From: Ruminococcus flavefaciens | Lineage (GTDB): Bacteria > Bacillota > Clostridia > Oscillospirales > Ruminococcaceae | Assembly: GCA_023667045.1 (NCBI GenBank) | Contig: JAMPAU010000003.1 | Location: 124,001-188,000 of the forward strand | Length of the DNA stretch: 64,000 bases | Direction: 5' to 3' | In this document: positions 33,320 through 34,425 of the stretch, one piece after another | How positions within the stretch are numbered: position 1 is the first letter of the stretch | Layout of the letters: each line of letters begins with the position of its first letter | The notes under the pieces: generated by a model | Databases searched by the model: none | The model's input: only the letters and a program-made list of their open reading frames with translations | What the model was told of the DNA's origin: nothing | Made by a program: the position numbers and the translations under genes

Positions 33320-34242
33320 TTTTTTTTCCATTTTATAAGGATTATCGCTGTTATTCCGGTAAGCACGGCAGTAAGTACGATTGAAAACCACGTATAAGGC
33401 ATTGGCAGGTCAACGGTATTTATCCCATAGAAAGCAAATATAATATTAGGTATTTCAAGAATAACAGTAAGGATAGTCAAACGCCACATTACTATATTCT
33501 GATTATTGGAGATAACCGCTGAAAAGCCGTCCATCATGCTTGAAAGAATAGCTGTATATATGCTTGACATTTCAATAGCCTGTTTCATTTCAATGAGTAA
33601 ATCTTCAAGCAAATCCTGGTCTTCGTCGTAAAGCTTTATCACTCTGCCCCTGAAAATCTTTTCAATGGTAGCCTCGTTGGCTTTCAGTGACGTGGAAAAG
33701 TATACAAGCGACTTTTCGAGGGCAAGCAACTGCATGAGTAATTCATTTTTCATAGCATCGTGTAACTGCTGTTCAGCAGACGACGAAATCTTGTCTATCT
33801 GTTTCAGATAAATGAGAAACAATGCGGCTACTCTTAGCAGTAACTGCAATACAAATCTTGTCTTGAATGCCGGACGGAGATTTTTTATACTTCCTCCGAC
33901 AGCTTCCTTTAAAACTTGAGTTTCCTGCATGGATATGGTAAAGACGTTTTTTTCAGTAATTATTATACCGAGAGGCTGAGTATAAAAAAGGCGTGTTTCC
34001 TCGCTGTCCACAGAAGATACCGGAGTATCGATGATAACAAGCGTCTGATTGTCCTCGCATTCTATACGAGAGGATTCTTCCTCATCAATTGAAGACTTCA
34101 CAAATCCGCTGTCAAGACCGTAAACTCCGATAAGTTCTTCAACTTCCTGCGGAGTGGGGTTTATCACAGAAACCCAGCAACCGTCTGTACGTTCACCGCA
34201 TGGGCTGAGTATGCCGTTTTCCGAAGTGTAGAAGTTTATCAT
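33316..34242 (-). CDS. CorA-family divalent cation transporter with GIN instead of GMN
   Basis: 308 residues from ATG 34242: a soluble N-terminal domain, a long helix (about 130-245) and two C-terminal membrane helices. The signature between them reads FYGINTVDLPMP, where CorA Mg channels have GMN; the Ile is a known type of variation among relatives and may alter selectivity. The ATG has no ribosome site nearby. A CTG at 34269 in the same frame follows AAAGGAG by seven bases and would add nine residues, so the real start may be there. The leader holds a small ORF and competing helices. Confidence 0.88.
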   Translation of the reverse strand: MINFYTSENGILSPCGERTDGCWVSVINPTPQEVEELIGVYGLDSGFVKSSIDEEESSRIECEDNQTLVIIDTPVSSVDSEETRLFYTQPLGIIITEKNVFTISMQETQVLKEAVGGSIKNLRPAFKTRFVLQLLLRVAALFLIYLKQIDKISSSAEQQLHDAMKNELLMQLLALEKSLVYFSTSLKANEATIEKIFRGRVIKLYDEDQDLLEDLLIEMKQAIEMSSIYTAILSSMMDGFSAVISNNQNIVMWRLTILTVILEIPNIIFAFYGINTVDLPMPYTWFSIVLTAVLTGITAIILIKWKKK

Positions 34243-34273
34243 ATTAAATTTTTTGTCTGAAAAATTCAGGCAA

Positions 34274-34330
34274 ATGCTCCTTTCGCCGAATTTACATGGG
34301 CAGGAGCATGGAGAGCATGAACTTCTGCCC
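34274..34330 (-). promoter_or_regulatory. Bistable leader of the corA-like gene (SD sequestration)
   Basis: The ribosome site AGGAGCAT (34274-34281) can pair perfectly with ATGCTCCT (34302-34309). Upstream, GGGCAG (34325-34330) can pair with CTGCCC (34298-34303), which shares bases with the anti-SD arm, so the two helices exclude each other. A second ATGCTC copy could also mask the site. The layout fits translation control coupled to the leader ORF upstream. Confidence 0.6.
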
Positions 34331-34335
34331 GTATA

Positions 34336-34368
34336 TCAATTTAAATTCCCATAAGGGTCAGAGTTCAT
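34336..34368 (-). CDS. Ten-residue leader peptide MNSDPYGNLN upstream of the corA-like gene
   Basis: ATG at 34368 follows CGGAGG by six bases and about 22 bases after the likely transcription start, so it should be well translated. The peptide contains Asp-Pro; runs of acidic residues with Pro destabilise the ribosome at low Mg in the E. coli mgtL leader. The stop sits just before the GGGCAG arm of the bistable leader. Sensing of Mg by this ORF is inference. Confidence 0.6.
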   Translation of the reverse strand: MNSDPYGNLN

Positions 34369-34396
34369 AACACACCTCCGTAATTTTTATACTATA

Positions 34397-34425
34397 ATTA
34401 TAGCATATATTTTTTACTTTGACAA
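34397..34425 (-). promoter_or_regulatory. Promoter of the corA-like transcription unit
   Basis: TTGTCA, 17 bases, TATAAT on the minus strand, immediately upstream of the leader ORF ribosome site. Confidence 0.75.

Follow-up and report, generated by a model that had tools for sequence, protein, structure and literature searches.

A conserved acid-proline leader peptide and two competing RNA helices precede a CorA-like gene in Ruminococcus flavefaciens and suggest a translational attenuator

Could the ribosome that translates a short leader peptide inform a CorA-like transporter gene of the Mg2+ status of the cell? This question is raised by a locus of Ruminococcus flavefaciens that we analyzed within a 64,000-nucleotide stretch of DNA (hereafter the window; all coordinates are positions in it). 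A first-pass annotation had proposed that a promoter, a 10-codon leader ORF containing an Asp-Pro pair and two mutually exclusive RNA helices couple Mg2+ to synthesis of the transporter. The documented cases of Mg2+ sensing through an aborted leader that we located in the literature are from enterobacteria only.

All of the elements named in that annotation were found on the minus strand, upstream of the CorA-like gene. This gene (34242-33316, minus strand) encodes a putative CorA-like divalent cation transporter of 308 residues that matches PF01544 with an E value of 2.5e-47 and solved CorA structures with E values to 1.3e-18, falls under the TIGR00383 cut-off (score 81, with 201 required) and is the sole match at E 1e-5 in its own genome. 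The CorA filter motif reads GIN, not GMN, in 88 of the 94 readable loci among 110 close-orthologue loci scanned; elsewhere in the order it reads GMN in all 25 readable loci of 28. Downstream of the preceding gene lies a terminator-like hairpin (34471-34442, minus strand, from a pattern scan only), so the leader is probably transcribed on its own. The promoter that had been annotated in the leader was confirmed as a sigma-70-type promoter-like site, TTGTCA-17-TATAAT (34425-34397, minus strand), with 11 of 12 matches and a TG before the second hexamer, and TATAAT-like boxes were seen by eye, uncounted, upstream of many of the orthologue leaders listed. The leader ORF itself (34368-34336, minus strand) reads ATG AAC TCT GAC CCT TAT GGG AAT TTA AAT TGA and encodes MNSDPYGNLN; it is preceded by a Shine-Dalgarno (SD) sequence, GGAGG, at 34379-34375, with Asp-Pro codons 4-5 at 34359-34354 and codon 7, GGG, at 34350-34348 on the same strand.

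Four segments of this minus-strand RNA are relevant to its folding. Segment 1 (34384-34351) runs from the leader SD to codon 6 and pairs with segment 2 in the predicted minimum-energy fold of the free RNA, which also ties up the SD and start of the leader ORF. Segment 2 (34331-34315) forms the 5' arm of an antisequestor helix and holds GGGCAG (34330-34325). Segment 3 (34311-34296) is common to helices 2:3 and 3:4 and holds both CTGCCC (34303-34298) and ATGCTCCT (34309-34302), while segment 4 (34287-34275) holds the corA SD, AAAGGAG (34283-34277), which is buried in helix 3:4. In one helix GGGCAG pairs with CTGCCC, in the other ATGCTCCT pairs with AGGAGCAT (34281-34274); because both use bases 34303-34302 and would otherwise cross, they are mutually exclusive. 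Folded alone, the two hairpins are nearly equal in energy, at -14.1 kcal/mol (z -2.95) for GGGCAG:CTGCCC and -13.8 kcal/mol (z -3.04) for ATGCTCCT:AGGAGCAT, which agrees with the earlier description of a bistable RNA. The stretch that spans both hairpins (34332-34275) adopts the ATGCTCCT:AGGAGCAT fold at -18.9 kcal/mol with a z of only -1.56; for the leader as a whole the folding energy is -42.7 (z -3.7), a value equalled by none of 200 shuffles. When only the RNA after codon 6 was considered, helix 3:4 won in the window (-18.9 vs -17.4 kcal/mol). Among 87 distinct leaders it won in 51 and helix 2:3 in 35; between the best fold that includes 3:4 and the best that lacks it, the median gap was 0.3 kcal/mol, with a gap of at most 3 in 54 of the 87.

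We collected 110 close-orthologue loci (73-100% identity; 74 of 80 named records are Ruminococcus) with 86 distinct upstream regions. An SD-led ORF with the N-terminus M-[NSK]-x-D-P-[YC]-G is present in 84 of these 86 regions and also in four further loci of the genus (L111-L114), so that both the well-placed ORF and its Asp-Pro pair, proposed from the window, are conserved among close orthologues. It is missing from two regions, that of L011 and L044 and that of L019 and L081. L011 keeps an SD and the hairpin that bridges it to the start (see below) close behind a promoter-like box without the leader ORF, and its corA-like gene may be constitutive. The remainder of the leader ORF and the position of its stop vary, from 10 to 45 codons, which identifies the N-terminus as the conserved part. 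Codons were counted in the 87 distinct leaders, which were chosen by the motif itself and therefore all carry Asp4-Pro5. The Asp codon is GAC in 83 and GAT in 4, the Pro codon is CCT in 79, CCC in 7 and CCG in 1, codon 6 is TAT, TAC, TGC or TGT, and codon 3 is highly variable. Codon 7 is GGG in all 87 leaders while the Asp, Pro and Tyr codons show synonymous variation, an apparent constraint at the nucleotide level. Within the genus each leader carries one acid-proline pair only, as against more in MgtL. A wider regulon marked by the exact DPYG motif was considered and rejected, the motif pattern having a single match in its own genome, the leader itself. Other DPYG matches exist among 60 relatives, some interrupted by stops; of two that were inspected, one lies within a glgB-like ORF and one, by eye, within a coding frame.

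Comparative support for the helices was assessed by a partner-swap test, applied with fixed windows to 40 leaders that each represent a different sequence cluster. For helix 2:3 a leader's own partner was better than swapped ones by 4.8 kcal/mol (p 1.9e-9) and ranked in the best 5% for 12 of 40, and for helix 3:4 the gain was 3.1 kcal/mol (p 2.2e-8; 10 of 40). Pairings 1:2, 1:3 and 1:4 showed no significant gain among these close orthologues. In far families helix 1:2 gave a swap p of 0.002, and helices 2:3 (p 0.08) and 3:4 (p 0.14) were non-significant there with windows that were crudely set. Individual base pairs were then counted in two sets of compact leaders, with 24 and 14 members drawn from the 87 and with long-loop leaders left out. 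These sets came from splitting an alignment of 33 leaders, L062 and L109 among them but not used in the counts, that had mixed two pairing registers of helix 3:4; the register differs between two sub-lineages, and burial of the SD is retained in both. In the 24 leaders helix 2:3 is paired in 94.4% of cells and has two-sided changes at 6 of 9 pairs (2.4 in shuffles, 0 to 2 in slid structures), and helix 3:4 is paired in 89.6% with two-sided changes at 4 of 11 pairs (0 to 3 slid), a count matched by 33 of 500 shuffles; as the pairs were defined from L106 and L031, the percentages paired favor the unslid structure. In the 14 window-like leaders helix 2:3 is 98.2% paired with two-sided changes at 3 of 8 pairs, a count reached by 65 of 500 shuffles and a covariation score reached by none of 500. 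Helix 3:4 is 90.5% paired in these 14 leaders and essentially invariant, which demonstrates conservation and not covariation. The eight pairs that cover the SD, 34274-34281 with 34302-34309, are kept in 98.2% of cells. Of the covarying arms anticipated from the window, those of the competing helix 2:3 do covary, whereas the SD-covering pairing is near-invariant and without covariation. The loops are free to vary in sequence and length, and the start of the ORF with its SD is among the best-conserved parts of the leader.

The corA ribosome site buried in helix 3:4, as had been claimed, has a further feature that the claim did not include. All 87 leaders contain AAGGAG, and 86 of the 87 contain GAAAGGAG. 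In the window 34 nt separate this SD from the AUG; between them sits a small hairpin (34274-34252, minus strand), whose own z there is only -1.41, and some 11 nt of the spacer remain outside it. The SD-AUG distance is 27-45 nt in 76 of the 87 leaders, of which 73 fold at z < -1.5 against shuffles; in these 76 leaders the bridging hairpin is conserved in position and not in sequence. The spacing outside the hairpin has a median of 11 nt over all 87 leaders and is 5-14 nt in the 11 leaders without a hairpin. Hairpins that bridge an SD and a start are known from phage T4 genes.

Acid-proline leader peptides are also found outside the genus. A CorA-like gene was found in 93 of 295 sampled genomes of the order, and this search together with further loci provided 92 distinct non-genus upstream regions. 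Of these regions, 52 have an SD-led ORF with DP somewhere in codons 2-7, compared with 0-4 in 20 Markov shuffles, 1 in the reverse complement and a mean of 1.6 over the 400 dipeptides. Among 35 regions without such a DP, several have EP or other acidic N-termini (MSPEPRSRG, MSPEPSRKR, MEPNPEPRS, MSADGNGR) and some show no recognisable leader. A loose acid-proline pattern matches 79 of 92 regions (shuffle mean 8.15), or 78 of 92 under slightly different filters, and the strict pattern M-x(0-3)-[DE]P matches 72 of 92 (shuffle mean 2.9, max 7), both patterns having been written after the order-level leaders had been read. Removal of MEADDPF, the tail of an upstream gene, leaves 71 strict hits that spread over 12 of the 16 family-level groups of the order. 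In 67 of these 71 the acid stands at codon 4, which puts [DE]P at codons 4-5; over all 71 it is Asp in 58 and Glu in 13, an interchange that indicates conservation of the acidic residue and not of the codon. A Pro precedes the acid in 33 of the 71 hits and Ser-Arg often follows.

The only independent test of the strict pattern, which was fixed beforehand, is a class-level set: of 132 genomes of the same class with a match, 76 were fetched, 3 had no usable match and 73 were scored. The unchanged pattern was found in 21 of these 73 from other orders (shuffle mean 1.8, max 5; reverse complement 0). All 21 hits have the acid at codon 4 and 19 have a second acid at codon 2, M-[DE]-x-[DE]-P being the commonest form; one hit, L290 (MKREPIKS), looks like chance. 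The resemblance to MgtL that had been pointed out for one leader thus extends across families of the order as Asp/Glu-Pro at codons 4-5, and to other orders. Collectively these data show that similar acid-proline leader peptides stand before the same gene in many Clostridia, an observation broader than the one originally made. Five loci, all from one family-level group (L116, L147, L151, L160 and L167), have an acid-proline leader ORF, encoding a peptide that begins MKPDPL or MNPDPYG, that extends in another frame over the start codon of corA. This overlap leaves little space for alternative helices and would imply that the same peptide is read out differently. A ribosome that completes such a leader would cross the corA start and only early drop-off would leave it clear, which is a hint as to the sign of regulation.

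As a comparison, the strict pattern was searched upstream of 30 MgtE genes of the same order (L324-L353), where it occurs twice (shuffle mean 0.85, max 3). These genes often have an SD-led leader ORF of their own, by eye M-[DE]-[AST]-G-S-S-x-G..P-R, and M[DE]x(1-2)G, a pattern written after viewing them, is present in 18 of the 30 regions (shuffle mean 0.45, max 3). These ORFs are an apparent second leader-peptide family before a Mg2+ channel.

The distribution of the two transporter genes provides an indirect link to Mg2+. Of 295 genomes, taken to be the same sample in both counts given identical search settings, 93 have a CorA-like gene, 183 have MgtE and 10 have both, where about 58 co-occurrences would be expected (Fisher p 1.5e-36, which is overstated since the genomes are related). 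Such near-exclusion is the pattern expected of two alternative Mg2+ uptake systems, and the genome of the window gave no match to MgtE. A covariance-model search found no M-box (RF00380) in the window, and with Infernal's stricter filters none was found in 60 relatives while the B. subtilis and L. lactis control genomes were detected; the leader is not an M-box. At the gathering threshold no Rfam family matched the leader in the window or in nine relatives. Four sub-threshold Rfam matches around the leader at E up to 1 were all on the opposite strand and were rejected. The corA motif is described as confined to gammaproteobacteria in the part of PMC6429828 available to us. Mg2+ as the signal is what we infer from this gene content and from the work in E. 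coli and Salmonella discussed below.

If leader translation selects the helix, the position of the ribosome should matter, and the geometry of the 87 leaders is consistent with this. Segment 2 was sought only downstream of codon 6. Its start is separated from codon 5 by at least 15 nt in 84 of 87 leaders, so that it stays uncovered while a ribosome occupies Asp-Pro. In 86 of 87 a ribosome that has arrived at the stop extends to segment 2 or lies beyond it, against 61.9 of 87 when the stretch ahead of segment 3 was shuffled; leader stops cluster at two places, immediately ahead of segment 2 and 15-16 nt past its start. Equilibrium folding gave a different picture. Accessibility of the corA SD showed no consistent shift with ribosome position in the 87 leaders (means of 0.24 to 0.27 at codons 1-12, 0.26 free and 0.28 at the stop), and a pure equilibrium switch is therefore unsupported. 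A helix-specific calculation, devised after this accessibility test had failed, considered the nascent RNA before segment 4 exists in the 33 of 87 leaders with a testable stop position. Here the mean P(2:3) was 0.59 for free RNA, 0.72 with the ribosome at codon 5 and 0.23 with the ribosome at the stop, the codon 5 value being higher in 26 of the leaders and lower in 1. Some of the drop at the stop is built into the calculation, as the ribosome footprint may overlie segment 2. The corresponding values for the window are 0.03 free, 0.71 at codon 5 and 0.00 with the ribosome at the stop. For the full-length RNA, P(2:3) with a ribosome at codon 5 was above its value without a ribosome in 55 of 87 leaders and below it in 7, and P(3:4), at 0.57 to 0.69, on average exceeded P(2:3) in every tested state. 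The proposal that leader translation decides which helix forms therefore stands in part: the modeled nascent RNA agrees with a co-transcriptional switch, partly by construction, while equilibrium accessibility of the SD does not change consistently.

The reading that we favor, and hold with moderate confidence by analogy with known leaders, is that this region controls the CorA-like gene by translational attenuation, in which Mg2+-sensitive drop-off at Asp-Pro frees corA translation. Pairing of segment 3 with segment 2 would leave the corA ribosome site free (ON), and pairing with segment 4 would bury it (OFF). A ribosome that finishes the leader ORF would cover or have passed segment 2, so that helix 3:4 could form and corA would be OFF. 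A ribosome that stalls or drops at Asp-Pro would leave segment 2 free and segment 1 open, allowing helix 2:3 to form in the nascent RNA and corA to be ON, the choice of fold probably being made during transcription. Translation of E. coli MgtL is described to abort at EPDP at low Mg2+ (PMC11282234), and since dissociation of the ribosome at N-terminal acidic and proline residues is favored under that condition, low Mg2+ would be expected to switch the transporter on.

The same attenuator might instead respond to a signal other than Mg2+ and read the state of the ribosome or its factors, through EF-P, ABCF proteins, the charging of tRNA or a small molecule causing arrest on the short peptide, a reading we consider reasonable if unlikely. 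Asp-Pro repeats stall B. subtilis ribosomes that lack EF-P, and EF-P or YfmR relieves the stall (PMC11381351, as far as the available part of that source describes it). Fixation of residues 6-7 (Tyr/Cys-Gly) in close orthologues likewise goes beyond what plain destabilisation of a ribosome needs. Against such a signal, the leader precedes a transporter that substitutes for MgtE and not genes of translation or amino-acid metabolism, and outside the genus just the acid-proline pair and a loose Ser-Arg remain, a pattern more in keeping with destabilisation than with a specific arrest peptide. A device that constitutively fixes a low CorA level through a small upstream ORF and a weak, buried ribosome site seems improbable to us. 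The folding at equilibrium, which keeps the SD mostly buried at any ribosome position, would suit such a device; two near-isoenergetic helices that share one strand and that each have comparative support are hard to account for without switching.

Mg2+ riboswitches are known before transporter genes of this kind, and a stable leader (z -3.7) with exclusive helices before a transporter gene would look much the same if its RNA bound Mg2+ or another metal and the ORF were incidental. We regard this as very improbable because the Rfam search in the window and nine relatives and the M-box search in 60 relatives gave no match, because the loops vary freely while the ORF start and its SD are among the best-conserved parts, and because Asp-Glu swaps point to selection on the peptide. 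Short ORFs and hairpins are common enough that the ORF, helices and promoter might have come together by chance without function, an explanation to which we attach next to no weight given that conservation in close orthologues, order and class is far above shuffled controls.

Beyond the Mg2+-sensitive attenuator favored for this locus, one can imagine the ribosome serving as a Mg2+ gauge across Clostridia. The M-x-x-[DE]-P corA leaders would then have converged on, or descended deeply with, codons 4-5 of MgtL, and would replace the M-box, with the second leader family serving MgtE; this broader picture is tentative, and we lean slightly against it. A large conserved Clostridia set with acid-proline at the same codons would make the mechanism general and would offer dozens of naturally occurring variants with which to learn what residues destabilise the ribosome when Mg2+ is low. 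It would also explain a possible control of Mg2+ uptake in gut bacteria where no M-box was found (60 relatives).

How does this leader compare with known systems? Among the open-access literature matches listed, none describes an acid-proline leader peptide before corA in Firmicutes, subscription papers lying mostly outside the scope of that search. The MgtL peptide reportedly has EPDP at codons 2-5, which places an acid-proline pair at codons 4-5 as in the Ruminococcus leader. MgtL also lies upstream of a Mg2+ transporter gene (mgtA of E. coli and Salmonella), with competing folds and a repressive effect of completed leader translation, but it acts on transcription termination and its target is a P-type ATPase (PMC11282234, in the part available), whereas the Ruminococcus leader buries the ribosome site itself before a CorA-like gene and leaders of this genus carry just one acidic residue near the start. 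The 5' region of E. coli and Salmonella corA likewise has a short ORF, CorL, and two exclusive folds, and leader translation there is inverse to corA expression, E. coli corA being repressed when CorL is well translated; it differs in being Rho-dependent, in having a three-way junction, in being gammaproteobacterial and in having a single proline only in the conserved N-terminal part of CorL (PMC11552253, within the portion available).

The closest precedent is MgtQ, which the first-pass annotation had not mentioned, an ORF of 8 amino acids before Salmonella mgtB. As described in the accessible part of PMC8092293, it is short with acidic codons near its start, and stem-loops 1:2 and 3:4 compete with 2:3, the ribosome site of the Mg2+ transporter being occluded in 3:4; control is translational, the acidic codons and the alternative folds free the mgtB ribosome site, and stem mutations behave as the model predicts. 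MgtQ lies between genes of an operon, has Asp2 and Glu5 and serves a P-type ATPase gene in a different phylum (PMC8092293, same part); the Ruminococcus leader stands behind its own promoter-like site and has Asp4-Pro5. Several features of MgtL and MgtQ recur in Ruminococcus, namely an SD-led ORF directly before a CorA-like gene, early acidic and proline residues, and exclusive helices 2:3 and 3:4 with the ribosome site in 3:4 (in close orthologues; non-significant in far families). Helix 1:2 over the leader start is present in the predicted free fold and does not exceed swapped partners among close orthologues. The ermC-type attenuator follows the same logic, with 1:2 and 3:4 against 2:3 at the ribosome site and a ribosome early in the leader ORF; it differs in that its signal is an antibiotic, its ribosome is stalled and it is unrelated to metal transport. 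The logic is thus a known one, and what is new, relative to the open-access literature searched, is the phylum, the CorA-like target, a peptide consensus of its own and the bridged SD.
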